Assembly: GCA_008508345.1 (NCBI GenBank)
Contig: QNGE01000922.1
Location: forward strand, 25,381-89,380
From: Paragonimus westermani
Taxonomy: Eukaryota > Platyhelminthes > Trematoda > Plagiorchiida > Troglotrematidae
Reading direction: 5' to 3'
Length of the DNA stretch: 64,000 nucleotides
Shown here: positions 8,143-64,000 of the stretch, piece after piece
Layout of the letters: every line of letters begins with the position of its first letter
Position numbering within the stretch: the first letter of the stretch is position 1
Position numbers and translations under genes: made by a program
Notes under the pieces: model-generated
Told to the model about the DNA's origin: nothing
What the model saw: the letters and a program-made list of their open reading frames with translations, nothing else
The model's database searches: none

Positions 8143-10708
8143 TAAGTATAGTAACTGACCTCGCCGAAGTGCTGCTGAAGTTCCGCAGAGGCCATATTGC
8201 TTTAGAAGTGAACAACAAATGACTCATCCAGTCGTAATTCCATTGAGTGAGGTAAGTTTCTTTCGATTCATCAAGGGAAACCGATAAAGTTTCACGGGGT
8301 CGTTCATCCCACAGGAACAGCATTTTGACCTTTCTCCACATAAGTCACAGTGAGAAAAGCAGTAAGAGTGTTTTGAGGCAGTAATAGACAATGCGAAGGA
8401 AAGCAGTGAAAGATGTTTTCCCTGTCAACAGCTGTCTACCTTTATACAAAGATGTGCACAAAGCCATGTATTTTGTTAACGAATTGAAAAAAGTAACATC
8501 GCAAGACAGATTCCGATTTCGTAAGTGAATATCCAGTGACAGAAGGGCTTTTAAACATACTTTCGAAGATGCGTTTTCTTCACCAATCGAATGCTAGAAC
8601 ATTAGTCATCCTAAACACGAACGAACTTTAGAATATGGCTGGTATGTGGGAGAAAATGCTAGTAAGTTCCCGTCAGAAGTAGCTTCAAAATTGAGGATCA
8701 AATGAAGTATGTCGTATCTTGGTTCCTCATACAACTTTTCAAGCCTTCTTGCTCTAATTTTTTACCTAGAGTATTTTTAAATTATCACATTCTATTAACA
8801 TCGACGATTTAATAGTAGGAATGGAGTGAATATAAGAGGTGAGTCTCAGTAAACAGTAAAAGCACATCATACCTCCCAGGTGCAACTCCCTAGAGCATAC
8901 GAAAATTCACGTAGGTTGGGATATCGTTGATAGAAGATAAGAAGCCGCTGAGTGTGAAGTGAGAAGTTGACCAAGTACAGGTCTTGTGTAGGATATTAAT
9001 GGCAGTTAGGTGACGTTACTTAAATCAGGCTCAATACCTTGTCTGCGATTGAACGATGCTGTCAAGGCAGAGTGTCACTACTGAAACGTTAACCGACTCC
9101 CACTAACTTTTTGAGTTGATTCAATGGTAACATACTTTCATATCAGTCACGACAAAAGCTGGGACGACACATACTTCACTAATCGTCTGTTACTTACGCA
9201 TGTGCACACTCAGCATTTTCAGTAAAGAATTAGCCAAGGAAAAACAAACTCTATCGAGTAATTATTGTGTAGTCTAAAAATGAACAATTTAGCATGAAGC
9301 TGCTGAATTGACGGGCCTTTGTTTGCCGGGTACTCCATTGGCCATTTTATGGCGCCAAGTGTTTACCAAACGTGAAGATAAGACCAGTAGCTGGAGTCAA
9401 TCTGATAATATCTTCCAAAAGTTTATTTTACAAGCTTAAATGCCACTGTATTTGGCTGGAGCTGTTATGAGCAGTTGTTTACCTGCAGTCTTATGAAGCC
9501 TACGCCAGTATCCTGTGGCTTAGGCCGAATCATGATAATGCGGTTTGAAAATCTGACTGCGGATGAACTAAATGGAACAGGTGTAGATATTTAAAAATTG
9601 GTCCATTAGTGAATCTTTGCTGTGATGTATTCAGTCTTGTCATAGTAAAAAAATATTTTCAATTTGACCATCACTCACATTTGATCGCAGCCTCCGCATT
9701 CAGATAGAAGCCTAGTAACTTACGTGAGCTAAACCACATCATGGTGAAGGGAATGTTATGGGTAGCCCGTAGACTATGATATGCATACTTATTATTTGGC
9801 CTTGAGCACACTTCAATCATGCCTGCCACACTCAATGGTACGGAGCTCCTTGTTCACTTAGTCGTAATAAGAATGTCACGCAGGATCTCGCAGCCGTTAA
9901 TGGCTACCATGACAAGATGTTGGATAATCAAAAGAAAATCTGCTGTGAATGATGTCATCCGAACGTGTAGGCGACGTAAACGTAATCTTTAGAAGTTGGC
10001 AGAGCAACTTATAGTTCACATTCCTGTTCGTCGAATGCATGTTTATAGTTTTCCAACCCAATCTGTCTTTGAATATATTGTAGTCGTTCTAACGAAAGCG
10101 GTTAACTTTATGGCAAATTGATGTTTGTGTATTCACCTACTATATCATGCATATCGTTCACACGGAGGCAGTTCGGTTGTATTCAACTATCTAACCCCTC
10201 ACGGTGCTGACTAGTGTTTTCTCACCGATGTGTCCCGAAGGAAATACTTGATATCAATTTGTCTAATTTTCATGCAGTGCATACGGAGTTAAAACGAATT
10301 TTACAACTGCTATACCAAGAAGAAACAAACGAACATGTTTTGACCTATGGAGTTCGTTGGCATTTCAGCCCAATGGATGTTAATCGATCAGGTCGTGAAT
10401 AGGAAAGTGTAGTTAGATCCTTAAAAGAATACTGACCTCATTACATACCACATAATTTACGATGATGTATTAACAATCAGTTTGGTCAAGGTATAAAAAA
10501 TCTTGAACGGTTGACCAGTGAAGCACCTAGAGGAGGATTCATTATTTCCAATTGCTCTAACGTCAACCGTGTTGTTTTTGGTGAGATCAGACATCCTAAT
10601 TCATCCACAACATAAATGGTTTGGCATTTACAGTGGAAAATGAAATGAGGTACAAATGTTTGCCATTTACTTCTGAAAACGCTAGACTGTCTTTCATTCA
10701 GAAGTAAC
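8143..10708. other. No supported gene
   Basis: Low-GC, stop-rich DNA. Small frames such as 10214-10402 (+) carry no motif, and no repeat was matched elsewhere in the window. Confidence 0.5.
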
Positions 10709-16304: not shown

Positions 16305-16606
16305 TGTTGCGAACCGAAAACGCGGATGGCACAAGAGTTATTTATTCGGGGAAACCAGTACACGGGTTATACGTTTCAAACGAACAAAAGCAGTCACAAT
16401 GCTGATCTGAGGATGCTCCGGTCGTTGTGGCCCCAAATTCTCAGCTCCTTCATATGGTGAAAACCATTCTATGTGATGCTGCCCTCCAATGATCTTTCCC
16501 GCATCTCACCCGTATTCGTCCCGCGGTCATTTCGATCTATGCTGTCGCCTCCCTACTGAATAATGGTGGTGTCATTAGTATAGTGCGACCGTCCGTCCTC
16601 ACTGCA
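16305..16606 (-). mobile_element. Solo LTR (copy 2) with 4-bp target duplication
   Basis: This 302-bp block is the reverse complement of the LTR at 516-818 with scattered substitutions. It reads TGCAGTGAGG at its 5' end and GGTTCGCAACA at its 3' end on the minus strand. It is flanked on the plus strand by CTGC at 16301-16304 and again at 16607-16610, an exact 4-bp target-site duplication. With no internal region between, this is a solo LTR left by recombination between two LTRs. The AATAAA signal is preserved. Confidence 0.75.
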
Positions 16607-16834: not shown

Positions 16835-17038
16835 TGAGGTCAGTGGCATAATGGTCAACACGGTTGCCACATAAAAAGTGTGGCCGGAGTCCGAACGCCA
16901 GCCGTGACGGACATATGCGCTACTGATGAGCTCTAATGAAAGCGAAACTCGAGGTCAGTGCCTCTTCTTTTCGAAAGGGGCTGGCTGGAAAGTCTATCTG
17001 CATGTGAAGGCTGCGATCGAATGTGAGTGATGGTCAAC
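16835..17038 (+). repeat. tRNA-headed SINE carrying a degenerate hammerhead ribozyme
   Basis: The left part (16835-16900) is tRNA-like. It has a box A-like TGGCATAATGGTC near 16844 and a weak box B (GGAGTCCGAACGCC) near 16886, as in pol III-transcribed SINEs. A hammerhead region follows at 16917-16962, then a conserved tail starting GCTGGCTGGAAAG and ending in GTGAGTGATGGTCAAC. The same head recurs at 63143 and the same ribozyme and tail at 22342. The layout of a pol III head plus hammerhead is that of the schistosome Sm-alpha family (established knowledge). Membership here is inferred from the layout, not from a database match. Confidence 0.65.
16917..16962 (+). ncRNA. Hammerhead ribozyme, degenerate copy
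   Basis: The core CTGATGA is at 16923-16929. Stem II is GCTCT with AAAGC around the loop AATG (one C-A mismatch at 16933/16940), and GAAA is at 16944-16947. Stem III is weakened to A-U, C-G, U-G. After the GTC at 16954-16956, the right strand of stem I reads AGTGC, which still pairs with GCGCT at 16917-16921, but the base opposite A16922 is missing. Compared with the intact copy at 22357 the mutations fall in stem II and at the stem I/cleavage junction, so self-cleavage is probably weak or absent. Confidence 0.6.
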
Positions 17039-17379
17039 TGGGAACAACATTAATCCCTGAACGATTCAGCTGCTAATAACAAGTTCGTGTGTGGAAAACG
17101 CCAGAAATCTCTCTGTTTCGCCTTTCTTCTCTCTTAGCACTCCGATATCTCAATAAGGACGTCCTCCTGATCGCTGACAAATAATGCCGTTTGACCGCTC
17201 AGCTTCATCACACTGGATAACAGCCTGGTAGAAAGTGGGCGGGGCACCACGGTGGGTTCAGAAATAATTATCACTAAACAAGCATCTGAATAGTGTAAGA
17301 GGAGCCTCCGCAGACGGCCGGTCTTAATTGCCAAGAGCTAGCTACGGAACGGATGGTCTGACCTAGCTAGGTCAACTCA

Positions 17380-20400: not shown

Positions 20401-22341
20401 TAAAGTTATATGAACTAGACTTTTTACAGTGTCCAGGATGAGGTGTGAAAAACGACAGACAGAATTTTTAATCCCCATTGTGCTTAATGCTAACGAACTC
20501 CACCGTCCAACGTTATTTTCTCAAACACTTACTGATGCATAGATTTGCTAGCAGTTGGCTTTCGTAAGTATCATTGTTGTTCCGTCATCTTTCAAACTAA
20601 CGAGAACTTTTTTTGTAGCAGTACAGATTATAATGAAACGAGCAACAAGCTATTGAACACGCTCTTTAAGAGCCATTCTAACCGATTCTTCCACTATAGA
20701 CTGTTTTAAGTGCATTCGTCGACTCAATATTCAACGGATTGGTCAGAAGTTCAGCTCTGTGCAGACATCAGAACCGAAAAAGTCTTAGTAGTTGAAAAGA
20801 TTGTGCAGTGAATGCGATCGACAATGCCAACTCTAATACATCTTGCAGTTATGAAAGGCCACTCACTAACTCCGGAACTTTACAAACTTGGCGACATTCT
20901 TTGTTAGCCGAGTAACGTTTACCTTAAAGTTAGTGTTTGCCAAATATAAAAGCCATTTTCCCTGAAGTCGCTCAAATCAAACCAGTGGAAACCGATCCAC
21001 ATGAGCACAGGTAGTTTCAGCTGAGAAACAATTATCATTTTAGAGGCTGACTTCTCAGATAACTTTTGTCGCAGTAAGACAGGCCTCAAACACAAAGATG
21101 GGAGATTGTATCAGAGTTTGCGAATCTTTCGAACCAACAGTGTACACGGACATGTTGTGCCTAAGAATGACCCATCAATCTGAACGACGAATCAATAAAC
21201 GATGAGCAAACTTATTACGCACTATCGGAGGAAGTTTCAAAATACAGGAAGCCAAGATTCCAAGCGATACCCGCTTTGAGGTAACGAAAACGTTAATGCT
21301 CTTTATAAAAAAAATTGAACGAGACATGTTACTAGCCATGTGGGAAGTTAGAGTGCATTCAGCAAGCTCAACATTTTCTGAAAACTAGAACAGAAACGAC
21401 TATAATTACTGCTGACTACACCTATGAAGGATTGAGGATATAAATGCACGGCGTAAAGCTTAAAAGAAACAGGACATGCAAATTTGATGTAGACATCTGA
21501 AAATACGCCAATGTGCTAACCACCCAAAAATAATGTTGCACTTTTCAAAACTCATACATTCGTAGTGACCCAGCGTGGCTTGACTTCACTGAGCGCGTTT
21601 TGTTTAGTCCTCCCAACAGTAACTAGGTAACAGAACAGTTAACAAAAAGTCAAAATTCTTGCCCTAGGATATATGAGGTGGCTAGTGAAAGATTGAGGGT
21701 AACGCCCAAGCCTCATTCTCTGTCATACTTAGTAGTTCGGTTTGCCTTGCTGTTAGTGTAGATTAATGAATTTATGTATTCTGTTCGATTAACATATACT
21801 TTTCCAAGATCGAACAGAAATTACTGGCCTGAGTAAGTAAATTTCTCCGTTCTATCTTCAGTATGTACAAATACAAATGGCCACCCAAATGCACACAAAA
21901 CTTCAATTTATCATTCAAATTCATACTGTCACATCAAATAAGAATGGAGGGTAATGACAGGATATTAACAAGATTCTCTATGAATGAGAAGGATATCCAA
22001 ATAAACAACACTTGATACAACATTTCACAACCTAACTCACTGTAGTTACTGTGTGAAAGTCTGTCTTTTTGGCCATCTGTCTGATTGTCAAAATTTTTGT
22101 AACTGGAGGTTAAATGCGTCTTGCTTGTTAGCACTATGAATTTTAAGACTAGCTATCACCTTCTCACTGATGTGTTGGATTTCATTATACAGGAGATATA
22201 GACCACTGTACAAGCGATAAAGATTATCAAATGTCCAATCCGACCTAACTGTTTCTCGGTACATTCTGAGTCAGTATTCGGTGTCAATAAAACAATCTCG
22301 TTCATCCAACTTAGTTTTTAAATTCCCTGAATAATATTCGA
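17456..22341. other. No supported gene
   Basis: Intergenic or intronic sequence. Short frames (for example 18657-18857 (+) and 19494-19730 (-)) carry no recognised domain or convincing splice borders. No internal repeats were matched to the rest of the window. Confidence 0.45.
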
Positions 22342-22475
22342 CCGTGGAAAGGATATGCACTACTGATGAGCTCTAATGAGAGCGAAACTCGAGTCTAGTG
22401 CTTCTTTTCGAAAGAGGCTGGCTGAAAAGTCTATCTGAATGCGAAGGCTGCGATCAAATGTGAGTGATGGTGAAC
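22342..22475 (+). repeat. SINE fragment with intact hammerhead (5'-truncated copy)
   Basis: Aligned to 16905-17038 this segment has the same order: CCGTG, then ATATGC, the hammerhead, the TTTTCGAAAG stretch, GGCTGGCTG and the GTGAGTGATGG tail. The tRNA-like head is missing and the homology begins abruptly at about 22342. That start lies 15 bases upstream of the ribozyme, which fits truncation near the head or insertion of a shortened transcript. It differs from the other copy by a number of substitutions plus small indels. Confidence 0.7.
22357..22401 (+). ncRNA. Hammerhead ribozyme, type I, complete and perfectly paired
   Basis: Every element of the motif is present. Stem I is GCACTA (22357-22362) paired with TAGTGC (22396-22401), six Watson-Crick pairs. 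The core is CTGATGA (22363-22369). Stem II is GCTCT (22370-22374) paired with AGAGC (22379-22383) around the loop AATG. GAA follows at 22384-22386. Stem III is ACT (22387-22389) paired with AGT (22392-22394) with only CG as loop. The cleavable base is C22395 after GU, so self-cleavage would fall between 22395 and 22396. Stem I is open at the outer ends, which defines type I. The three-pair stem III is strained in a monomer, as in other repeat-borne hammerheads. Confidence 0.85.
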
Positions 22476-23789
22476 TTGAAAATATCCGAATAAAAAACTC
22501 ATTTTAATACACAAAGCTCATTTCATCTAATTAGTTATTAACAAAAGGCGTTTGCACTCGGTTGGTTTGCTTTCAAACAAAAACCATGGGATGCTTGAGT
22601 ATATGCAATACACTGGCAACGACATTTATAAAATTCACTGGAATTGAGATTTGAACTAAAGAGAGGATATCAGCAGCTCCATGACCAAGGAACTGTTTGA
22701 GTCAACAGACGAAACCTACTGGGAGCGAGACAGCGCCTACTGAGTAGCACTGATTCAGAGCACAAATAACTATATGAATTTTCGATTGCACAACATCACA
22801 TCGAACGTTTCGACCGGGCCTGCCACTGGACGACTTTGAGCTCTGGTACACACTTTCTGTTGTCATTGCTTTCTTCCCCACAGCGCTTGACAATTATTTG
22901 GACATAAGTTTAGTCATTCTTTGTAATAATCATCAGTCTGTTCTGCCCATCTGGAAGTCGTTACAGCTGACATTTAACTGACATCAAACCCGACAGGAGG
23001 GGCATTTTGGTATATTACGATCGTCAGTGAACGCAACAACGCTTCAAAATGAAAGTAACAATCGTGATCCAACCACACATTATTTATCAACCAAGTATGA
23101 AATTGTAAGTTTCCCTGGCTAGTATATACGTTCTTAACTGACTAAAGTAACCGAACTGTTGACGTTTTGCAACGTTTTATTTCTTCATTGATCACTTTTC
23201 ATGTAAAACTATTGTTATCATTAGTTATGTTTTTATAGTGTAGGCCTTTTAACAAGATCTCAGTGTTACTGTCATTTTAATTTTTACTCTGGAAATCTTT
23301 TCCTGGTTGGTTACAATCATTACAAGAGGTGTAAGTTTGATGACTATGGAGTGGAATAGATGAAGCCGTATTATGAATACAACCAGTTTGCATCAGATGT
23401 TTAAGGTTATGAACAAAACACGACAGTCCTCTTGCGTTGCCGATACACATGTGTATTTGTGTCGTTGCTCGCACTTTTACATTTTCTTTGGTGCGTTTAT
23501 CCGTAGTAAACCAGATGTAGATGACCATGTATGTGCGCACATCTGAGTGCGTTTTGTATGTTTACGTGAGGAAGAGAGGAGAATACCTTGAGTTTAGTTC
23601 CGGTCACTTCCCGTGCCCAAAGAATCCGTCTAATCTACCAATGATGGATCGTTTCCGGAAGGGTTTTATGAAAATACCATTGGCAGAATTTCTTAAGGCC
23701 GCCGTGCTCTTAAATACTGATCGTGTGGATTCAGTTTATTTTGTGCCTATTCTCACTGAGAATTCACAGTATTTGACTACGATTCTTAC
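22476..23789. other. Region upstream of the RING gene
   Basis: No supported exon. A 91-codon frame at 23521-23796 (+) ends just before the RING start codon and is probably not coding. The sequence ATTCTTACAG at 23780-23789 is a fair splice acceptor and could join an upstream 5' untranslated exon to the RING exon. A promoter was not recognised. Confidence 0.4.
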
Positions 23790-23813
23790 AGTATAATCCA
23801 GAAAGGAAATTTA

Positions 23814-24293
23814 ATGGGCATACCATCAGAAAGATTTATCAATCATGTTGACGAAAATCTGATATGTGGGATTTGTCATGGAGTTTTTGTCTGTCCTGTG
23901 CTCACCGACTGCGGACACACGTTCTGTGCTCTCTGCATGAAGCAGTGGCTTCAAACCCCAAATTTCAACGTTGATCCGCAAACTCCTAAACGGTGCCCCA
24001 CATGCAGACACGAATTTCTCCAGACGTCATCAATCCAAACAGGAACAGAGGAAATCGGCGCAGTCTTTACATTCGCCCATCCAGTACTATCGCTGCGTAA
24101 TTTTATTGGTTCAATGTTAGTCCACTGTGAAAATACGGCGCGAGGTTGTACAACTGTGGAGTCGGTTGAAGTGATGAGTTCTGGTATCCATACTTGCGTG
24201 TGCTCATACACCCCCATGGATTGTGCTGGCTGTGGTCAAACGGTTAATCGGTTGGAGCTGGCCGCTCACCAGTTGGGTTGTTTTGGCATTCAA
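23814..24293 (+). CDS. RING plus TRAF-type zinc-finger E3 ligase, first coding exon (RNF41/NRDP1-like)
   Basis: This exon encodes 160 residues in a complete phase-0 frame. The start Met-Gly, then Arg-Phe at 7-8 and Val-Asp-Glu at 12-14, just before the first zinc cysteine, matches the N-terminal layout of RNF41/NRDP1 and PDZRN proteins, which supports this ATG. A C3HC4 RING is complete: Cys18, Cys21, Cys33, His35, Cys38, Cys41, Cys61, Cys64. A second, TRAF-type zinc-binding part follows (Cys105, Cys112, His126, Cys128/130, Cys137, Cys140, His152, Cys156). Such proteins transfer ubiquitin from an E2 to receptor or signalling substrates. The exon ends at a consensus GTGAGT donor (24294). The gap between the sixth and seventh zinc ligands is longer than in NRDP1. 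The family is clear, the exact orthologue is not. Confidence 0.85.
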
Positions 24294-27200
24294 GTGAGTA
24301 GCAGTCTTACAGAAGAGTGATGATTTTATTTCCCACAATTAAATCTGTTTACATCTGGTGCTTATTACCATACTTTATTGAACGAACCACTGTTAAATCT
24401 ACGAACACAACCAACTAACTCGTCCAGAAACAAAATAGCAAGTACACATATTTTCAGTGTTCCATCACGAAGCTTATTACAGCACAAATGCACAGGAGCT
24501 AGTTGCTAGGGCATGGTTAGCTTGACCAACCATTATCGTCTCGAGACAACTGTCGCACTTTGGCCTTTGTGGAGCTCATTCAAAACGTATCGAAAATAGC
24601 ATCTTCGCCTTCCTTTGAACTAACAAAGTTCACGTGATCTCCCAGTTTTTCCACACAGAAGCAAAATGTTAAAACTGTCTCCAGTGTATGTCAACAACAA
24701 GGATGGGCAAATTTTTACTAAATATATTAATTAATCTCTTGGCATACGATGTGATAAGTGCAATATTCGAAAAATGTGGATGATTCGCATAACCGTCAGA
24801 AAATTCCTATAAGAACAGAGGCAACAATGTGATCAACAGTTGTCGATTATTCCGTCCCGGGTCAATACAATCACAAAGATTTCACCAAGACGTCACAAAA
24901 CAAACTGCGAAATAAACAAGGCCAGACTGTTAACGAATGACAATAAATGCTACTACTAGACTCAACACAATAATTCGATAGGTCTGGACCGGACGGTGAC
25001 TGGATGGTACGTCACACGGTCAGGGCCAAGTGTTTGCGTGGTTAGACTGGATGTGACTGATCTGTGACCATGGAATTTGCAATGACTGAACGAATTACTT
25101 TTGAGAGCACAAGTTAGGGTTGCGTGCACTACTGGGCATATTCTTGCGATATGTCTGGGATAATCCTGTTAAATCGTATAAGATATTTCTAAATAATCGT
25201 AAATTGAACTTCCTAGTGAGTAGTTAAGTGGGGCTATTCGGACAATATGGGTCAGAAAACCCCGTTGAACTCAAACTCTCATTTTTACTGAGACACTCTT
25301 GATTGAACTGTTCACCACATATTGCCATATACGTTTCAAATAAATCACTAATTTCGAGTTGGCGACTAAAGAAAGTCAACTCAACTGTTAACATGTTGCG
25401 AAAGGCTCTCTCTCTCACTTTGTTCTGAAGAAATAGATAGAGAAACTCTAGCGTTTTATTTACACTAAGATCGAACGTCATTTGTCTACAGTCAGACATT
25501 CTGGTTCAATAATACTATCATCGTCAACGTACAGTCAACCCTGCAGTTAATCAGCACAATACACTTCTTCTCGTTAGACGAGAATCGGTTGTAATTTCCC
25601 CACATAGACATTTTTGAGATAACGCACGCTAAAACTGCCTACTTAGTATTGCCAAATTCCTAGTCATTCACTCTTTCTCACTACGATACTTCATACCTTC
25701 AGTTTTGCAAAATTATTTTTTTCTAAGCTCATTTCGATATCTATATTCACAATGTTTGGAAATTCCTCATTCTTCTCAAAGTTTATTAGAACACATCAGC
25801 TCATTTTTATTCTCAAGGTTACTATAATTTTGCTGCCGAGATGAAGCCAAATTTTAATGGTACGGGTTTATTTGGAATCATTTCGTATGAAACAAAAAGG
25901 AGTGTTTTTATTAGAGAAGATAAAGGCCTGTCTACATTGCAAAACATAAACTGACTGAGTGGAGTATCAAAGTGACTTCGAGTAATTACTTCGTAACGGT
26001 TATTCCTTTTTGCAGTATACAGATGCACGTTATTTTCCGTATGGTATTTCACAGCGATCTTGTTACAACAAGTTGAGGCGAACTTGCACAGACACGACAG
26101 GTGCACTGACAATCGACCAGCACTAACGAGAGCGGATCTTGATTGTTGTATTCCTTTCAGAAAATGTTAGTCAAAACAGATTATAAATTCACAACCATCG
26201 GCTTATTTAACTATAGTAACCGAGTAGTCCAATTCAACAGTTAGCTCGCGTCAATTCTCATTATCGATTTTAGTGTTTTCCAGTATAACATTCTCTTTTC
26301 CCTCTTGTTTTCACTTCTTTTCATTTCATTCACGATAACTCCTCGGCCAAGTGCGTACACGCTGTGGTCTTTTTTCCCGTCACTTCATTGAATTCTTCGT
26401 ACATACCATAGGGTTTGCCTCAAACATCTAATTTAACTGCTACCAAATCTAAACGTAACAACATGTTGTTTCCACTTATGACAAGTAACCATTATAGAAA
26501 GTCTTCAGAGTATTCTTCATTTCTTCAAGTGAATAACGAACCTTCATCTTGATGCAGTTCTGCTAATAGTCTAGAGATTACTTCAAGTGGAACTGTCACT
26601 AGGTTGCTTTATAACAAAGTCAGGGATTTATCTGTAAACGTCCGACGGTAAAAGTTTGGTCTCATTCTTCTCAAGTGATCAACAGGTTTATCAACGTTTG
26701 AGTTTGCCTCAGGTTGTGAAATATTCAATAGTAGTTTCCCCTGATCTGTTTTTAATGGATTTGGTACTTTTACCTGATCCTCAAATCATTTGTCATACAC
26801 AACTGCTACCCTCCTATGCACAAATGGTTTCTTTTATCACTGTTCCCGGCTGTTACGCTTTCTAGTGCCTACAGGCTAAAATCGATCAGTCGTTTTGTGA
26901 TGAACCTACATACGTGCAAGTATTCACCACTGTTCTAAAGAAGTCGAGTGAGAGGTTCTACGTCAAGACAACCGTCGAAGTATTTGACGGATTTCGAATT
27001 TGTTCGGTCTCTTCAGCACTACGTGCGCGGGAGAGTCGGATCTGGGCCTGAAAAGTAATGGTCTGAACTGTCGATGTGCGTCTACTCACAAGTAGCGGGT
27101 TCGGTATGGTGCTAATAGGACACAACTTCGCTTGTGGTCTCCGGAACCAAAAGTTTTTCAGTTGTCCTTCATCCGTTAGACACGTTAGTAAGCGATAAAC

Positions 27201-34668: not shown

Positions 34669-34978
34669 TGTAGCGAGCACGAGTGGTCGAAATATACTAC
34701 TCACACTAACACTATTCAAGAGTGTGGCAAGAGCATGGATTTTGAAACCGAAATGGTCAAGAGAAAAAAAAGAAGAAACACTGGGGTGCAGCATCGAGTG
34801 AAATGGTTCTTGCTAAATAAAGGAACTGAGGTTTGGTGTCCGTGTAAACCGTGACTTTCAGAGACGAGTTTGGTACGCAGGTGAGTGTTTTGCTGATGGT
34901 CCTGTTAAAATGCGTAACACATGGATTGGTCTTCCTGGTGAATAACCCTTGTTTCACCCGCATCCTTGGTTCGCAACA
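34669..34978 (+). mobile_element. Diverged LTR (copy 4)
   Basis: Starts TGTAGCGAGC and ends GGTTCGCAACA, and aligns along its length with the other LTR copies. Matching landmarks include ATACTACTCACAC after the start, AACTGAGG-TTTGGTGTC in the middle and a CATCC-TTGGTTCGCAACA end. It is clearly more diverged than copies 1-3, and its AATAAA has become AATAAC. Flanks TCGG (34665-34668) and TCAG (34979-34982) differ by one base and may be a decayed 4-bp target duplication. It is a solo LTR of an older insertion or a sister subfamily. Confidence 0.6.
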
Positions 34979-47421: not shown

Positions 47422-47507
47422 GATATACAGATTGGGAATAACACAACGTTTCGAGCAAGAGTATTACAACTTGCTCGAAACGTTGTGTTATTCCCAATCT
47501 GTTTATC
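47422..47507. repeat. 38-bp foldback (inverted repeat with 10-base loop)
   Basis: The arm 47422-47459 is the reverse complement of 47470-47507 with one mismatch. The central 32 bp (47428-47459 with 47470-47501) is perfect, around the loop AGTATTACAA. The arms contain the word GCTCGAAACGTTG, of the kind seen near the 3' ends of Penelope-type elements, and the tail-to-tail layout resembles the inverted tail at the left end of the intact element at 49076. Beyond the arms the word GTTTATCAAT recurs on both sides, offset by an insertion of roughly 28 bases on the left. Confidence 0.8.
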
Positions 47508-49075: not shown

Positions 49076-49318
49076 ATCTCGTAAAAATTCCCAGCGTAGT
49101 CATGAAAAACAATGTGTAGCGAACAAGCTCGTTTTCAGTTATTCATCATCAGGCTAAATACATCACATTTATATCACACATTTCACGGAAGAATCGTTAG
49201 GGGAGTATACGGGGGGACATGTGGTTAATGAGGTCAATCAGTTCAATGTCACACTGCAATTATGTACCCACTTGAACAATGGGTCTTGACAGGCTAACCG
49301 GGTGGGGGGTTGGCCAGG
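49076..49318 (-). repeat. Inverted copy of the Penelope tail and unit start
   Basis: Reverse complement of 50513-50755. Coordinates on the two sides sum to 99831 throughout, so there are no gaps. Noticed differences are in the stretches around the ATTCTCCCGTG, CTGATGATGAATCACTGA and GTACATGATTGC words of the tail. The inversion breakpoint is sharp: at 49319-49323 the sequence switches to the direct copy just after codon 410 of the reading frame. Confidence 0.9.
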
Positions 49319-49319
49319 T

Positions 49320-50571
49320 CCAATTAAAGGAAACCATAGATTATCTGTGTGATTATATTGAGAACAGTGACATGGATATTCAGATACCGTCGGTCGAACT
49401 CAAACAATTACTTTATCTGTGCACTTACAACGTACAGTTTAAGTTCAATGAAGGAATTTATCGACAAAAGGACGGTGTCGCAATGGGATCGCCGCTGGGA
49501 CCACTGTTTGCGGACATTTTCATGGCGAAATTAGAAAATGAACAGTTGAGTCCAGCAATTCGCCAATGCAATTTTTATAAGAGGTATGTTGACGACATCC
49601 TTTGCGTACTCGATAATAACGTTGACCCAACTGACATATTGGCAACATTCAACTCCGCGCACCAAAATTTACAATTTTCGTTGGAGACCGAAATGAATAG
49701 CCAATTAGGCTTTCTGGATGTACGTTTACGTCACCGTGCTGATGGCTCAATTCAGCGGGCGATACATAGAAAGGATACTTGGACTGATCAGTATATTCAT
49801 TTCAATAGTTTCGTACCACTTGCCTCGAAAAGAAATCTGATCAACTGTTTGACGGGAAGAGCCCTAAGGATTTGCACGGAGGACACAATTGCGCAAGAAT
49901 TAGCATTCATACGCGCAATATTCATACAGAATGGATACCCGGAAAGGTTCATAGATAGGGCCATGCAACAGCGGGGGGTAAAAGACCGGCTGCACTCTGT
50001 AGAAAAGAAAGCTGTGCATATCGGATTACCATTCAAAGGCGATACTTTAGCCGAAACTATTACACGTAGGCTCACAAGCGCAGTCAACCGAACATTCTAC
50101 GCCGCTAAATTACGAGTCCACTTCACGTCCAATCCGGTTTTGTGCCCACGCCTAAAAGATAAAGTGCCTATTTCTGCAGCCTCGTTTTGTGTATATTCAT
50201 TTACTTGTTCCTGTGGGACCAGTTATGTTGGCCGCACGACTAGACGCTTATCGGAACGGATCCGGGAACATCATCCAGCTTGGCTCAACAGTGGTATAAC
50301 AAAGTCTGTCTGCAGCGCCATACTATCACACCTGGTGGATTCAAATCACGCTGTCAACGTAAAGGACGCATTTCGTCCAATCTACCGAGTTAAGGCCATC
50401 CGGTCGAGAGCGGTGAGGAGTAGGATTCTGTCTACAGCAGAGGCTATTGGGATCCGAATGTATAACCCACCCCTGTGCGCCCAAAAACGTTTTGTTCAGG
50501 CTCTGGATTTGCCCTGGCCAACCCCCCACCCGGTTAGCCTGTCAAGACCCATTGTTCAAGTGGGTACATGA
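49320..50571 (+). pseudogene. 5'-truncated Penelope reverse transcriptase copy
   Basis: Carries residues 411-825 of the full protein and no more. The motif A aspartate (Asp401 in the full copy) and the upstream DKG region are absent, so it cannot be an active reverse transcriptase, although the YVDD box and the GIY-YIG domain are intact. The open frame runs on upstream to 49279 into the inverted tail, adding 15 unrelated residues after a Met. The truncated copy may still supply promoter and tail functions to the full copy downstream. Confidence 0.85.
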
Positions 50572-50727
50572 TTGCAGTGTGACATTGAACTGATTGACCT
50601 CATTAACCACATGTCCCCCCGTATACTCCCCTAACGATTCTCCCGTGAAATGTGTGATATAAATGTGATGTATTTAGCCTGATGATGAATCACTGAAAAC
50701 GAGCTTGTTCGCTACACATTGTTTTTC

Positions 50728-53205
50728 ATGACTACGCTGGGAATTTTTACGAGATTCAAACAAGCCAAAGACCCAATTGCGCTGCGAGAACTTAATAAGT
50801 GCATTAAGTTTAGCGCAAGACTGGCGGAAGCGAAAGCGACTATTCAGTTCCTTGATAAATGCATGGACAGTTGCGAATACCCAAAGTACTATTGGAGTAT
50901 ATTACGTAGAAATCGGATCACAATAACGGCGACGTCATTGCAACGCCAAGCACTTAACGAACAAGACACAACGCGCAGCATGCTCGATGAGTTAGAGATT
51001 AACCTTACGAAGGCAGCGCGGGTTCTCGACCGATTGACACCTGAGGAACGGTCTAATTTTGAAGCTTATGCCGCACAGATTGCAACCAAACAAGGTGAAA
51101 AGAGGCTGGACAAATTACTCAAACAGATCAATCCAACGAAGCCCTCTTCGCAGTTTCCAATTAATCCAGAACGGTACGTGCACAATTTTTCTTCTTTGAA
51201 TCTGGACAAAGTATTACTCGAAGTGCTATCGTTAGGCCCTAAGTTTTGTTGTCCACAGCGTAAAACTAGGCAATTGGATTTAGAGGTGCAGTTTGAGAAT
51301 TTGTACGCACAGTTGTCGGTTCTCGATCCTACATCGACTCTAGATGCTGAGCAACTCAAATCTACACTAGTGAATTCGTGTTATCAGTACTTACGCTCGA
51401 GTCCAGCCTCTAAACAATTTCTCAGGAAAGAACATCTCGTAGCGGTTGAAAACTTGAAGAGAAATGAGAACATTTTAATTTCTAAGCCTGATAAAGGTGC
51501 GGGTATCGTGTTGCTTAATAGAGCAGATTATATCAACAAAATACGCACCATATTAGATGATCAGACCAAGTTTCGAAAAATGGAGAATGAAAAGGATAAA
51601 ACCCCACAAATCGAGAAAGCTATATCAAAATCCTTACGATGTTTAAAACAGAGGGGAATTATAGATTCAACTACATTTGAAAGAATTCGCCCCATCGGAA
51701 TCACGATTCCGAGACTGTACGGGTTACCCAAAATTCACAAAATCGGGGTACCACTCAGACCAATTTTGGACATGTGGAACTCTCCATATCACCCTCTAGC
51801 TAAGTGGTTGTCACAAATATTAGATCCCGTCAGGCGGAAACTCTCAACACACAGCTTACGCGACTCATATGATCTCGTGAATGCGATTAAGGATGCCAAT
51901 CTAACTGGGCAATCAATGTTTTCTCTCGACGTCACATCCTTGTTTACCAACGTCCCATTAAAGGAAACCATAGATTATCTGTGTGATTATATTGAGAACA
52001 GTGACATGGATATTCAGATACCGTCGGTCGAACTCAAACAATTACTTTATCTGTGCACTTACAACGTACAGTTTAAGTTCAATGAAGGAATTTATCGACA
52101 AAAGGACGGTGTCGCAATGGGATCGCCGCTGGGACCACTGTTTGCGGACATTTTCATGGCGAAATTAGAAAATGAACAGTTGAGTCCAGCAATTCGCCAA
52201 TGCAATTTTTATAAGAGGTATGTTGACGACATCCTTTGCGTACTCGATAATAACGTTGACCCAACTGACATATTGGCAACATTCAACTCCGCGCACCAAA
52301 ATTTACAATTTTCGTTGGAGACCGAAATGAATAGCCAATTAGGCTTTCTGGATGTACGTTTACGTCACCGTGCTGATGGCTCAATTCAGCGGGCGATACA
52401 TAGAAAGGATACTTGGACTGATCAGTATATTCATTTCAATAGTTTCGTACCACTTGCCTCGAAAAGAAATCTGATCAACTGTTTGACGGGAAGAGCCCTA
52501 AGGATTTGCACGGAGGACACAATTGCGCAAGAATTAGCATTCATACGCGCAATATTCATACAGAATGGATACCCGGAAAGGTTCATAGATAGGGCCATGC
52601 AACAGCGGGGGGTAAAAGACCGGCTGCACTCTGTAGAAAAGAAAGCTGTGCATATCGGATTACCATTCAAAGGCGATACTTTAGCCGAAACTATTACACG
52701 TAGGCTCACAAGCGCAGTCAACCGAACATTCTACGCCGCTAAATTACGAGTCCACTTCACGTCCAATCCGGTTTTGTGCCCACGCCTAAAAGATAAAGTG
52801 CCTATTTCTGCAGCCTCGTTTTGTGTATATTCATTTACTTGTTCCTGTGGGACCAGTTATGTTGGCCGCACGACTAGACGCTTATCGGAACGGATCCGGG
52901 AACATCATCCAGCTTGGCTCAACAGTGGTATAACAAAGTCTGTCTGCAGCGCCATACTATCACACCTGGTGGATTCAAATCACGCTGTCAACGTAAAGGA
53001 CGCATTTCGTCCAATCTACCGAGTTAAGGCCATCCGGTCGAGAGCGGTGAGGAGTAGGATTCTGTCTACAGCAGAGGCTATTGGGATCCGAATGTATAAC
53101 CCACCCCTGTGCGCCCAAAAACGTTTTGTTCAGGCTCTGGATTTGCCCTGGCCAACCCCCCACCCGGTTAGCCTGTCAAGACCCATTGTTCAAGTGGGTA
53201 CATGA
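50728..53205 (+). CDS. Penelope-like reverse transcriptase with GIY-YIG endonuclease
   Basis: An 825-residue protein, uninterrupted, starting at the ATG that is the first base of the repeat unit. An N-terminal helical, charged region (1-240) leads to the Penelope-type Asp-Lys-Gly motif at 255-257. RT motifs follow: the Leu-Pro-Lys-Ile-His segment, motif A Ser-Leu-Asp-Val with catalytic Asp401, the Gly-Val-Ala-Met-Gly-Ser-Pro-Leu-Gly-Pro motif B, and Tyr-Val-Asp-Asp at 498-501. The C-terminal GIY-YIG nuclease reads Val-Tyr-Ser at 700-702 and Tyr-Val-Gly-Arg at 711-714, followed by Arg-Leu-Ser-Glu-Arg and Glu-His, with flanking cysteines of the usual zinc-binding linker. Such proteins nick the target and prime reverse transcription of their own RNA in the nucleus. 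All visible catalytic residues are present, so the copy may be active. A Met nine bases upstream would come from a non-ATG codon and is unlikely. Confidence 0.93.
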   Translation: MTTLGIFTRFKQAKDPIALRELNKCIKFSARLAEAKATIQFLDKCMDSCEYPKYYWSILRRNRITITATSLQRQALNEQDTTRSMLDELEINLTKAARVLDRLTPEERSNFEAYAAQIATKQGEKRLDKLLKQINPTKPSSQFPINPERYVHNFSSLNLDKVLLEVLSLGPKFCCPQRKTRQLDLEVQFENLYAQLSVLDPTSTLDAEQLKSTLVNSCYQYLRSSPASKQFLRKEHLVAVENLKRNENILISKPDKGAGIVLLNRADYINKIRTILDDQTKFRKMENEKDKTPQIEKAISKSLRCLKQRGIIDSTTFERIRPIGITIPRLYGLPKIHKIGVPLRPILDMWNSPYHPLAKWLSQILDPVRRKLSTHSLRDSYDLVNAIKDANLTGQSMFSLDVTSLFTNVPLKETIDYLCDYIENSDMDIQIPSVELKQLLYLCTYNVQFKFNEGIYRQKDGVAMGSPLGPLFADIFMAKLENEQLSPAIRQCNFYKRYVDDILCVLDNNVDPTDILATFNSAHQNLQFSLETEMNSQLGFLDVRLRHRADGSIQRAIHRKDTWTDQYIHFNSFVPLASKRNLINCLTGRALRICTEDTIAQELAFIRAIFIQNGYPERFIDRAMQQRGVKDRLHSVEKKAVHIGLPFKGDTLAETITRRLTSAVNRTFYAAKLRVHFTSNPVLCPRLKDKVPISAASFCVYSFTCSCGTSYVGRTTRRLSERIREHHPAWLNSGITKSVCSAILSHLVDSNHAVNVKDAFRPIYRVKAIRSRAVRSRILSTAEAIGIRMYNPPLCAQKRFVQALDLPWPTPHPVSLSRPIVQVGT

Positions 53206-53361
53206 TTGCAGTGTGACATTGAACTGATTGACCTCATTAACCACATGTCCCCCCGTATACTCCCCTAACGATTCTCCCGTGAAATGTGTGATATAAATGT
53301 GATGTATTTAGCCTGATGATGAATCACTGAAAACGAGCTTGTTCGCTACACATTGTTTTTC
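53206..53361 (+). other. Penelope 3' untranslated tail
   Basis: The 156 bases after the stop codon are shared with 50572-50727 and, inverted, with the left end. They contain GTATTTAGCCTGATGATGAA and AAAACGAGCTTGTTCGCTAC, the part also found in the relic at 4970-5061. The end is fixed by the switch from shared to unique sequence after C53361. Confidence 0.85.
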
Positions 53362-55394: not shown

Positions 55395-55398
55395 CTGG

Positions 55399-55704
55399 TG
55401 TAGTGAGGATAGACGGTCGCACCATACTACTTCCACCACTATTCAGTAGCAGCATGGATCGAAATGATCGCGGGACAAATATGGGAGAAATACGGGAAGG
55501 ATCATTGGAGGGCAGCATCACGTGGAATGGCCTTCGCTATATGACGGAACTGAGACATGGTGTTCAAAACGACCGGAGCATCCTCAGATCAGTGTGGTAT
55601 GCAAATGAGTGTTTCTGTTCGTATTCCCGTTGAGACGCATAATTCGTGTGTTGGTTTCCCCAAATAAACAATTTCTGTGCCATCCGTCTTCTCGGTTCAC
55701 AACA
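55399..55704 (+). mobile_element. Solo LTR (copy 3) with 4-bp target duplication
   Basis: A 306-bp copy close to the one at 516-818: it starts TGTAGTGAGG, ends GGTTCACAACA and keeps AATAAA near its 3' end. It is flanked by CTGG at 55395-55398 and CTGG at 55705-55708, an exact 4-bp duplication, with no internal sequence, so it is a solo LTR. It is probably the least altered of the four. Confidence 0.8.
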
Positions 55705-55708
55705 CTGG

Positions 55709-58700: not shown

Positions 58701-61350
58701 ACGGTATTATTAGCACAACAACCAGACATTCAGCTAATTGAGATCGCTAACCGTACATCCGCATTTTTGTACGGTACGTCGAAATGTTAGACAATATAGA
58801 AATCCCACAGGTCAACGAGAAAAGAACACTAAGAAGCCATTCTATACAGACCAATTTTCCAAATCGTCACACTGGATCCTCCGTGACCTCATTACCAACG
58901 CGTCGAAGATGACTGGCCAGAAGAAACGAGTAAGCAGCGAACGCCATCTGGGAAACAGGTACACTTTTAAAATTGTTTAGGACACCATTTTTTATGGTAT
59001 TACGCTTAACTGCCTTAAGCGGTTTCTGTTCCTTGTTTGATAGAGCACCAAATGTAACCTAGTAAACAATCTTGGTTCTAATAATTCAACATCAGATTAA
59101 CTACTTTACATTCACGCCACGATTGTCCAAGAGAATCATCAACGAAGTGAGGAGAAAAAGGGTAGTTTAATGAAGCTAGTCCACTCGATGTCAGGGTATT
59201 CGAACAATGAAACTTACAAAGTTCGGGTCGGCCAACGTTGTTTCGAGGCTTGAACTAAACATCTTTGGGAACACGGTGATGGGTTGCAGAGGCGAATTTC
59301 AGCTGCCTCAATAATGGACAAGATCTCAGACCAGAGGGTTCTTGAGTGGTTACAATTAACTTGGTAGACTCAGCAGTGAGACTTCGTCACAGTGACTGAC
59401 CGGCATTCACTAGGTACGCTAGTGCGCAACTGTTGGGTGATTTCTTTGTTTCACTGTTGAGCCAAGTTTGGTCATGTTCACAGAGGCCGCAACGTCCACT
59501 CCAACAAGATACCACCTTTTTGTTCACACCTTTCTGTATTGGACGTAATTTGTAGATGGAACATAAAGCGATTACTAGGAGAGTCTAGGGATGATTACAA
59601 GCAATTTGCAAAGTCAGCTTGATGAGATATTTACTTTCTGTTCACCTCCTGACACATCTTATTCGGTAGGGGAGAGTTTTTACCAAAGACAGCACATTAG
59701 TGGGGAGGTATGTGACACCAACTGCAAATGTTTTTAAGCTAATTTTACAAGCAAACTCAAATTAAATAGGTCTATATTCTACTACATTTCCAACAGCACT
59801 AGTCTATTTAGCAGTGGGTTGATAGTGTTGCAGCCAGACTCAGATCACTTGATCCTGTCACAGACAACCCAAGCGAACACCCTTCGGCTGATCAATGGTT
59901 ACCTGATTACGAACACGAAGCGGTTTAACATGGTCATATAAAGTGTACCATTTCTAGACCCACTATACCAACCAATGAAACTACATCGGTTTAAAATACG
60001 GTCTACCCGTCCATTACAGTTTAGTTTGTATGGTGAATAAGTATCAGTATTAGTTGTAAGAAATGATTGACTGGAACAGCCGACGGCGGCTTTCAACGAT
60101 GCTGCCACCAAGCAGAGTACTTATGTAATTAATGGGCGGCGAGGCAGATTTATTCAGTATGACGAGGTATAGTTGTGTGAAATTCCAGAATTCAGCTACT
60201 GATATCACAATAAAGAAACTTTAATTTGAAATGAAACTAGATGATTAAGAGACATCAGAAGTCTTTTAAATGTCAACGGTCTTTGAATCGCCAATCAGTA
60301 AATACCACACACATGTACCCATGAACAATACCCGTAACCAACTTATTCGAAAACCAGGCAACTTCAGTTCTGATGTAGCACAGTCCAGCGGAGACGCATG
60401 TTCTTTGTTAGACCATGTGTTGGTACTCAATGACTGTGCATTCTAACTGAACGTAACGGAAGCTGTTTTTCTGACTTAAAAGTAAACAGTAGAACGGTAA
60501 GACCATGCCTTCCAATCACCTTATGTGACTTTTAAAGGTCATACTGTGATATTTAGTGGTAATGTTAATTATAAGTTGTGAAGCGCTGTACATTTGCGCC
60601 ACCAATTTCGTTCTCAATGCGAAATATCATCACCCACCAAATTAAGTTTTCGTTGTGTTATGTTCAGCTAGGAGTAACTACCCCACGCCCAGTGTACAGA
60701 CTCGGTTCCAACAAGAATGCTTTTAGACCAAGGAGGGGACTAGTTCGTTGTTCTCAACTCCTTGGTAGGGTCCAGTAAACCATTACCCTGTGATTAGCAC
60801 CAGAATCACGTACCTTCAAGACATTCAGTCAGTAACTCTTCTGTTGTAAATCTTTGTGTCCCTCGACCCAATTTTTCTTATTCATTTGACATTCTTCATG
60901 TTTTTCATTCTACTGTTGATGTTCAAACAAAATATCCTAAAATATTTTCTGACATTGGTCCTGTGTCATGACCTGGAAGTTTTAAGTCGACATTATTTTT
61001 AACCACCAATGATTAATTTCGGACTTCCCATTTCTGTTCGAACCTATCTCTATTCTGTTTGCTCATCAGAAAATAAGTCGAGTGGAAGTCGCCTTATGCC
61101 TACTCGTCCAAATATCAACCAGTGACAAAATGCTAGTGAGAATTTGTGAACCAATTTCACTGCACGAATGAAAAATCACCTCTTGTTGTTCTTCTCTGAT
61201 TGGCGCTCGTGATGTCTGACCGCATTTTAAATATATTCTGTGGCTTACATGCAGAGATGTAATGTATATCCACAAAGTGTACACAAAATATTTTCATTTC
61301 TAATCTTTCTGAGTTCAGGGTAAACTGATCTAGTTGTTTCCGATCGGCAG
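55709..61350. other. No supported gene; C11/A9 homopolymer junction inside
   Basis: An 11-base C run followed by a 9-base A run sits at 57630-57649. A 124-codon plus frame at 58115-58489 is the longest open stretch but has no recognised domain and odd composition. Small frames at 58738-58980 and 60578-60778 also lack motifs. The right end may contain the promoter and 5' untranslated part of the transporter gene, but no core promoter signal is convincing. Confidence 0.4.
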
Positions 61351-61970
61351 ATCAGCCAACAAAGAAAACTTAAGTATCTCCATGTCCCACAACGTTCCAC
61401 CTCCGTACGCCTTTGTCCCGCCGGAACAAATGTATGCTAGAGATTCCCGAACGATGATTTGCGGGCCGTATCGTATCAATACAGTGACCGCTCCCAGCTC
61501 ACATGAAACATATGAGGACAGACCGAAAATACTAGGTTTTCACGACCCTGCAGAACATCCGCCAGTTGCCTCTTGGGTCCAACCTGGAAGAGAACATTCT
61601 GCTATGCTCCGTGACCCAGCACATTATGGATACCAGGTGAATCATCGTGTTTTTGCTCCAAACGTACCACTCAAAATGGGTTCAAATATACAAATAGTAG
61701 AACCAGTGACCAATCTGAATTACGGTGACACCAAGCAGATAAGTACGCTCGAGGTGACCCCGATGACCATGTCTGAGAACGACCCGGCTGTTAACGCGGA
61801 ACAACAGGTAGGATCAAGCCGAGAGGCCGAGGTGCAAATTACCTACGGACGCCACGCGAATCGTGAAACATGGGATACGAAAATTGATTTCCTTCTGGCA
61901 GTCATTGGTTTTGCTGTGGATTTGGGCAATATTTGGCGGTTTCCTTACGTATGCTACAGAAATGGGGGCG
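61351..61970 (+). CDS. SERT: SLC6 monoamine transporter, serotonin-type, first coding exon (partial gene)
   Basis: Sodium- and chloride-driven reuptake of a monoamine across the plasma membrane is the role of this family. The exon encodes a long, proline-rich cytoplasmic N-terminus, then an Arg-Glu-Thr-Trp motif, a Lys-Ile-Asp-Phe-Leu-Leu stretch and TM1 with [13 protein letters not shown]. The TM1 Asp (codon at 61919-61921) is the amine-binding residue that separates monoamine carriers from GABA or glycine carriers, which have Gly there. Asp-Leu-Gly-Asn favours the serotonin type over Asp-Leu-Ala-Asn of dopamine carriers. The exon ends mid-codon at a GTAGGT donor (61971). A CGATCGGCAG acceptor at 61341-61350 suggests the translated start is ATG 61382. 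An ATG at 61334 in the same frame is less likely. Later exons are outside the window. Confidence 0.85.
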
Positions 61971-63142
61971 GTAGGTTGAGTCATTTTAGTAGCTTACATC
62001 TATTAACTACTAATTCTCCCATAAACCATATATGATTTGGTGTTCCTTAACCAATTCAAACGTTTTTTGCCTAGGTTTGTTTTGTTGTACAGAACTTCGA
62101 AACTAAAAAATATTATGAAAATAACGCGGGTTTGTATCTGTGCGAAGAGCTTGTATACACCATTTGGAAAATGTTAAAAAAATTCGGGAGTCGTGAAACA
62201 TTAACAAGAGACTATGCGGCTTTTTAATGAACGTGGTAATACGTGGCACATGTTGTATAATACATGACATATATATGCAGTAATATATGTCGTAAAAGTT
62301 GCTTGCGCAATGAGGACAAATCTGCTTCCAAACACCCATTTTACGACGATAAATTGCACAGATAGTGTCGTGTTTGAAATTCGTTTCTATCTGGGCTGCA
62401 ATGTGACCACATTCAGTATTTATGTTAACCTTACTATCATGTAAACACACCGGATGTCCGGTTTTTGCCCCCAATAATAATACTTGAAAAGGAATCTTAT
62501 GTTTCAAGGTTTCTTCTGTAACTGAACTTTCGTGTTGACTGAATAATGGTCACCTATCCAGCAGGTTCGCTTTACAGTCATGCATTATGTGATTTGCGGT
62601 AAACATGTTGGGGTTTGGCGAAAATTCTGTCTTTAGTTTGATCGTGATGTTGATTGTGACTTTACGTTGCAGGTAGACCACAGTTCAAAACCCTGTGTGA
62701 ACTCAGTGAGGGTTCTAACTAACTAAACTAAGTCAACAAACTGACCAATTTGTGAATCACAAATCCACTGCTTTGGTTGTGATTGGTCCGCCCACGTACC
62801 AGACGCATTACACTGTACAAACATGTTTTTTTCACGTAGGTCAAGGTCCATTGTTGAAGGGTCGTACCAATTGCACTCGGGTACTTTTTCCAACCAACCC
62901 CTTTCGAAAAAAATGACCTCTAAGTTTGTTACCTTCAGGTCTTATCTGTAGTAACATTATAGTTAAGGCCGGGAGTTGAACCATGACACGTTTTAATGAC
63001 GCAACTTTGTTGAGCACCGCCCCATCATCTTCACTGCACCGAACCACCAGACATGAAAGCTAAATTACAATCCTCACTGAGCAATGCTGAGGTGACAGAT
63101 GTCGCTAGGCGCTATGACATAATCATTCTGTAGTGTTCAGTG
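61971..63142 (+). other. Intron of the transporter gene
   Basis: Begins at the GTAGGT donor. No next exon encoding the Ala-Phe-Leu-Ile-Pro continuation of TM1-TM2 was found before the window ends, so the intron exceeds 2 kb. It holds one minus-strand open frame, at 62103-62507. Confidence 0.7.
62103..62507 (-). CDS. Open frame inside the transporter intron, unidentified
   Basis: A 134-codon frame with scattered Cys and His pairs (Glu-Cys-Gly-His in the N-terminal half, Cys-Pro-His-Cys in the middle) that might bind zinc. It lies antisense to the transporter gene. Composition in the second half is poor. It may be a fragment of a retroelement or chance. No family recognised. Confidence 0.22.
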   Translation of the reverse strand: MKHKIPFQVLLLGAKTGHPVCLHDSKVNINTECGHIAAQIETNFKHDTICAIYRRKMGVWKQICPHCASNFYDIYYCIYMSCIIQHVPRITTFIKKPHSLLLMFHDSRIFLTFSKWCIQALRTDTNPRYFHNIF

Positions 63143-63192
63143 TGAGATCAATAGCACAATGGTCAACATGTTTGCCACACAAAAACGTGGAC
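63143..63192 (+). repeat. SINE head fragment
   Basis: TGAGATCAATAGCACAATGG, followed by TCAACATG-TTTGCCACAC, lines up with the tRNA-like head at 16835-16884 with few changes and no large gap. The hammerhead and tail are absent, so this is a 3'-lacking fragment within the transporter intron. Confidence 0.6.
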
Positions 63193-64000
63193 TGTTATAG
63201 AAAGTATATACATACCTACTGGTTTAATCCTTGTTGAAACGAGGGTGGAAAATGAGACTAATGTTTCTTTTTAAGAAAGATCTGCTGAATCGCCCATCCG
63301 AACCATAAATCTATAGAAGTCTAGTCATGTTTTTTTAATTCATATCAGTAAACCTTCCTTATACATAAAGTCAGGCCACCTTTTACTTTACATAGTAAAC
63401 CTCTCGGCAAAGCTTCCAGTCCACTTCCACACGTCATTGCTGTTAATATTGAAAAATCAAGCCAATTTCGAAAATTAGTTCTGGAAATTCTTGCAAATTA
63501 GACCAGTCAACTGTATGGTAGGTAGTATAAAGAAAATTCCATTTCGTATATCAGACAAAAGCTAAAGCTGGTCACTCCGTTTTATCACAGTCATGAGCAG
63601 CATACCTGGTTTTTTCTGTTGAGTCTTACTCGTTGTTCTCAAGTGGCAATCAATGAAGTATGCGTGCACAGATGGTGTTCGCCAAACTTGTATTATAGCT
63701 CTCAAGTCTTTTGCTTCGACTTTTCAGAAATTCTTTCACCGGCGACCAAAGAAACCTGGTTTACATGTCACCGGAATGTTATGGGCACAGATATCACAGT
63801 GTTAGCTTAAAAAACGAAAAGTTTTGCTGTCGTACAGTAGACAATTGCGTATCCGAGCTAGTTACGGCCTGTCTGTCCACATTTAGTCCGTTGTAGAAAC
63901 TAACACTGGAGAGTGAGATTGTCTGGCAAAAGATACACTAAAATTGTGTATACTCGATGTTTTTCTCTGTCTATAAGTTACAGCCTTCTACGTCACAAAG
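63193..64000. other. Intronic end of window, one kinase-like fragment
   Basis: Between a good acceptor (TTGCTTCGACTTTTCAG, ending at 63727) and a stop, the frame at 63711-63896 includes Leu-Val-Tyr-Met-Ser-Pro-Glu-Cys, resembling the APE-type segment of a protein kinase activation loop. Nothing else supports a kinase. Otherwise no gene is seen. Confidence 0.25.

Follow-up and report, generated by a model that had tools for sequence, protein, structure and literature searches.

A 64-kb stretch of Paragonimus westermani DNA (the window, the whole of what was analysed) carries a ribozyme of canonical type I hammerhead structure at 22357-22401 on the + strand. This ribozyme very probably belongs to a SINE-like, tRNA-headed dispersed repeat of Paragonimus that is laid out like the SMα elements of schistosomes. 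Our confidence here concerns what the element is; the steps by which it may be transcribed, cut and spread are proposed separately below.

Identification of the hammerhead

Read directly, 22357-22401 has the order GCACTA-CTGATGA-GCTCT-AATG-AGAGC-GAA-ACTCGAGT-C-TAGTGC, which gives a stem I of 6 bp, a stem II of 5 bp with an AATG loop, and a perfect core. We scanned both strands of the window with a strict descriptor (CTGANGA, stem II of at least 4 bp, GAAA, stem III of at least three paired positions starting with A-U, position 17 not G, and stem I of at least 4 bp with G-U allowed). The sole match was 22357-22401, with 6, 5 and 4 pairs (the stem III count of 4 allows loopless pairing of the palindrome ACTCGAGT) and C17 at 22395. 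With a relaxed descriptor, in which one mismatch in the core and a stem III of two pairs were tolerated, this remained the only match on either strand of the window. The descriptor match and the Rfam alignment both contain the core CUGANGA ... GAAA ... NUH and three stems, open at stem I. By structure this is a type I hammerhead, and we infer that its RNA cleaves itself after C17, between 22395 and 22396, so that the 5′ end of the 3′ product would lie at 22396. An earlier note on this DNA had described a complete type I hammerhead with this stem I, a stem II with an AATG loop and C17 at 22395, all of which the direct reading and the descriptor bear out. Its stem III of 3 bp (CTC/GAG) has to be redrawn, because three pairs leave no loop. 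The palindrome occupies 22387-22394, and in one strand it can form stem III only as 2 bp, A-U and C-G, with a UCGA tetraloop; in a predicted dimer it forms a shared stem III of 8 bp.

The only good Rfam match by E-value was Hammerhead_HH9 (RF02275), an amniote intronic hammerhead; a further match from its clan, with a lower score, lay at the same place. The HH9 match covered 22344-22418 with 39.8 bits and an E-value of 1.3e-6 for the whole 64-kb window and 4227 families, or 5e-9 when 251 bases were searched. The alignment spans the full model (1-77) with no non-standard pairs marked, and it includes an outer stem I helix in which GAAAG (22347-22351) pairs with UUUUC (22405-22409) over an internal loop. 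The fluke ribozyme shares the stem II base GCUC/GAGC with HH9, but it lacks three model positions in stem III and it sits in a repeat. Because the gathering cut-off is 52 bits, we do not file the ribozyme as a member of HH9. The earlier note had named a covariance-model score below threshold as a result that would refute the ribozyme. Formally this is what we found, as nowhere in the window did a match rise to the gathering score of its Rfam family, but the E-value of the HH9 match makes a chance origin implausible.

We also estimated the chance level from random sequence. Among 150 second-order Markov sequences of 64 kb, scanned on both strands, the strict descriptor matched once and never with stems as long as those at 22357-22401, and the relaxed descriptor had no match in 12 random one-strand scans. 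The spaced core, CTGATGA followed after 6-30 bases by CGAAAC, occurred twice in the window (16923 and 22363) against 0.06 expected. The fold energy of a 57-nt segment was ordinary (z = −0.97, with 31 of 200 shuffles equally good). The claim that chance was very unlikely holds on the E-value and on the random windows, none of the 150 being equally strong.

The dispersed repeat and its tRNA-like head

Repeat, blastn and profile searches placed the ribozyme within a dispersed short repeat, as had been proposed, with at least five copies in the window, all five of which single queries had already found. The copy with the intact ribozyme lies at 22341-22486 (+ strand). It has no head, a blastn alignment of 127 bases puts its identity to the 16838 copy at 89%, and it is matched at 22335-22486 by a profile in which it is itself included. 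The longest copy, at 16838-17050 (+ strand), has a tRNA-like head, a damaged ribozyme and the shared tail. Its hammerhead (16917-16961, + strand), read by eye, retains both core blocks, with one stem II mismatch and an A/A at the base of stem I; it was not matched by the descriptor and scored 16.7 bits against HH9 (E = 0.13 on 231 bases). Two old, diverged copies with decayed ribozyme cores stand head to head within 62862-63305, with about 120 bases between them. The first (62862-63024, − strand) was found at E-values of 1.1e-7 and 2.3e-4 with single queries and 4.3e-7 with a three-copy profile, and has an exact tail motif at 62887-62908. The second (63146-63305, + strand) keeps a box A-like word and has a different, 7-bp stem II hairpin; its single-query E-values (0.0066 and 0.0024) are weak alone, and the three-copy profile gave 6.8e-5. 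A copy at 9652-9709 (− strand) consists of the tail only, without a ribozyme. The segment 40778-40937 (+ strand), whose core is not intact, may be a very old copy (single-query E-values of 1.1e-5 and 8.4e-10, and 6.2e-8 in round two). Further, weaker profile matches lie at 45447 (E = 3.1e-4), 3394 (0.0011), 46597 (0.0015) and 26090 (0.0077). The second-round profile had ten matches at E-values up to 1, five of them profile members that score by construction, and in the reversed window it had one match (E = 0.56).

The putative head of the 16838 copy was recognized by comparison with the box A and box B consensus. A box A-like element, TGGCATAATGG (16844-16854, + strand), and an imperfect box B-like element, GGAGTCCGAACGCC (16886-16899, + strand), are followed by the ribozyme and then the tail. 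ARAGORN found no tRNA, and Rfam found none in the 16838 head copy. Searching with the box A-like region as a 14-mer, with up to three mismatches allowed, gave 10 occurrences against 10.4 expected. In the 22357 copy, clear similarity to the head-bearing copy begins only at about 22335-22353. Because it has no head of its own, this copy would depend entirely on read-through for its transcription. Decay is seen in the other head-like copies, and none of the copies found in the window combines a head with an intact ribozyme. The description of the repeat as pol III-headed may thus fit the family, on the strength of the head-like words in the 16838 copy, but not the 22357 copy to which the earlier note had applied it.

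Additional features of the repeat were compared with random expectation. Compared with shuffles, the stem II hairpins of c63148 (0.008) and c22341 (0.017) stood out and those of c16838 (0.56), c63018m (0.28) and c40797 (0.086) did not, with segment edges set by eye throughout; the support that these statistics lend is weak. Target-site duplication scores for three copies (0.119, 0.942 and 0.135 relative to random pairs) did not exceed random. The pair AATATTCGA/AATATCCGA around 22341-22486 looked promising by eye as a target-site duplication and was rejected, since its best score of 6 was no better than that of random pairs. A search for relatives elsewhere gave no exact match in viral contigs or in genome contigs, sets that cover viruses and prokaryotes and may omit records close to the genome of the window, and a peptide search with three frames of the repeat (seven candidates) returned nothing at E-values up to 10.

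The state of the copies bears on whether the family is still active. Because only one of the ten profile matches (22357) is a descriptor match, the family may be mostly dead. The family might even be extinct, with 22357 a well-preserved relic that has neither a present role nor an RNA, an account that is compatible with the identity of the hammerhead and denies its present activity. It draws on the nine profile matches that the descriptor does not recognize (although 16838, among them, keeps both core blocks), on the missing head of the 22357 copy and on the decay of the other head-like copies. Against it, the core and all stems at 22357 are perfect despite about 11% divergence from the sister copy over 127 bases. 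We regard extinction as a serious possibility, albeit one that we lean against.

The window holds several other features. An open reading frame at 23760-24320, on the same strand as the ribozyme and about 1.4 kb downstream of it, encodes a RING finger (Pfam zf-C3HC4, above cut-off). Another dispersed repeat has copies at 515-819, 55398-55705 and 16402-16544 that are 78-92% alike, and possibly a fourth piece at 34930 (64%); the repeat search found no link between it and the ribozyme repeat. At 47427-47502, the perfectly matched 33-bp arms of an inverted repeat flank a 10-nt loop; its RNA fold (−56.6 kcal/mol, z = −14.8) was equalled by none of 200 shuffles, and it resembles a hairpin RNA, a microRNA precursor or a miniature transposon. 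A reverse-transcriptase element at 49076-53361, which we read as Penelope-like, has open reading frames at 49276-50571 and 50689-53205, inverted repeat arms that are 98% alike, and a Pfam RVT_1 domain; across 77% of the query, the reverse transcriptase (50689-53205) shares 95% identity with a protein of P. westermani. The open reading frame at 61334-62032 is a coding exon from the early part of a serotonin transporter (SLC6) gene, with 142 consecutive residues identical to a P. westermani serotonin transporter until the two sequences diverge, and 144 BLASTP identities over 163 aligned positions. Together with the reverse transcriptase, this exon marks the DNA as coming from P. westermani or a near relation.

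Single-strand and paired folds

We compared the predicted folds of one strand and of two. For the monomer (22344-22410), the hammerhead fold had an energy of −11.6 kcal/mol and the best fold −20.6 kcal/mol, a gap of 9 in a calculation without hammerhead tertiary contacts; the corresponding gap for the HH9 consensus was 2.2 kcal/mol. Pair probabilities in the monomer were 0.90-0.99 for stem II, 0.43-1.00 for stem I, about 0.64 for the outer helix and near 0 for stem III. With two strands, the predicted optimum was a double hammerhead at −49.9 kcal/mol, which is 8.7 below two monomers. This fold keeps stem II in each strand, forms stem I between the strands and includes the palindromic 8-bp stem III (pair probabilities 0.83-0.99), and its outer helices exceed the 5-bp length in the HH9 model. 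A dimer drawn by hand with 5-bp outer helices was rejected; at −39.7 it was weaker than two best monomers (−41.2 kcal/mol). Two 16838 strands were not predicted to form a double hammerhead, and for the mixed pair of the 22357 and 16838 copies a similar but imperfect double-hammerhead fold was predicted.

Among amphibian hammerheads, those whose stem III is weak (a single pair with a palindromic tetraloop, or two pairs with a tetraloop) are reported to cleave better as dimers (PMC7229834). The Paragonimus ribozyme might likewise work mainly in trans, with the palindromic stem III joining two element RNAs in a double hammerhead; cutting would then climb steeply with transcript level and put a brake on the copy number of the element. 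We consider this improbable. Because most invertebrate retrozyme hammerheads are reported to cut efficiently, unlike the vertebrate ones that need dimers (PMC7229834), and because the S. mansoni ribozyme is described as very fast once loop contacts are present (PMC6155905), the monomer mode appears at least as open for the Paragonimus ribozyme as the dimer mode.

Relation to known elements and significance

The kind of element described here is already known, and the Paragonimus lineage extends it. SMα from Schistosoma mansoni and Sjα from S. japonicum are reported to be SINE-like elements with hammerheads, the SMα-like copies being derived from tRNA-Gln, and a blastn count put the hammerhead candidates of S. 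mansoni at more than 38,000 and those of S. japonicum at about 5,000 (PMC2770079). A retrozyme paper also remarks on tRNA in the schistosome repeats (PMC4918200), and in a study of W elements three of five tested candidates in further S. mansoni repeats are reported to cleave (PMC8490949). Like SMα and Sjα, the Paragonimus repeat is a short, multi-copy, SINE-like trematode element with a type I hammerhead (PMC2770079, PMC8490949). The likeness to SMα that had been suggested from the outset is supported by the same layout in print, a tRNA-like promoter head (putative in Paragonimus), a hammerhead and a tail, and it is a likeness of layout, not of compared sequences. Paragonimus differs in being another fluke lineage, and its element is about 210 bp long, compared with 335 bp in the SMα-like W36.2_W001 (PMC8490949).

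In the part of a 2011 hammerhead survey on which we draw, Schistosoma is the only fluke named (PMC3088659), and the account of the P. westermani genome gives 0.96% SINE and 12.97% unclassified repeats (PMC6329441). A literature search whose reach stopped short of several schistosome and Penelope-like hammerhead papers (1998-2017) and of supplements contained no account of a hammerhead ribozyme in Paragonimus. The suggestion that this version might be undescribed agrees with that search but is not established by it; we consider it likely that the Paragonimus hammerhead repeat was previously undescribed.

A further reading is that the repeat is a metazoan non-LTR retrozyme, in which tandem copies give a multimeric RNA that is cut to monomers and circularised by tRNA ligase. 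The type I hammerhead with its 2-bp stem III and tetraloop has a form likened to that of invertebrate hammerheads, the copy of about 210 bp falls within the size class, and platyhelminths are among the named hosts of retrozyme-like repeats (PMC7229834). However, Tandem Repeats Finder found no tandem array in the window, and the copies are single and dispersed; we consider this reading unlikely. Penelope-like elements can carry minimal hammerheads, and the repeat might be what is left of one of these instead of a SINE, as the reverse-transcriptase element at 49.3-53.2 kb of the same window would suggest; the relaxed descriptor found no hammerhead in that element, and neither repeat search (seed 14, length 40) nor blastn linked it to the repeat, which leaves this account very improbable. 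A chance resemblance would be in keeping with a score under the Rfam gathering cut-off and an ordinary fold energy, but the E-value, the random windows and the same core in the sister copy make it scarcely credible.

Under the preferred reading, a hammerhead SINE with an SMα-like layout, the head-bearing copies would be transcribed by pol III, and self-cleavage of the element RNA, expected 3′ of C17, would part the head from the tail. Hammerhead cleavage leaves a 2′,3′-cyclic phosphate and a 5′-OH. Cutting could be aided by two transcripts pairing as a double hammerhead, and the element may have spread by means of a LINE reverse transcriptase.

Should the family prove real throughout Paragonimus, tRNA-headed hammerhead SINEs would not be restricted to blood flukes. 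It would then become testable whether this arrangement is ancestral to flukes or arose twice, and whether the ribozyme cuts as a single strand or as a pair.
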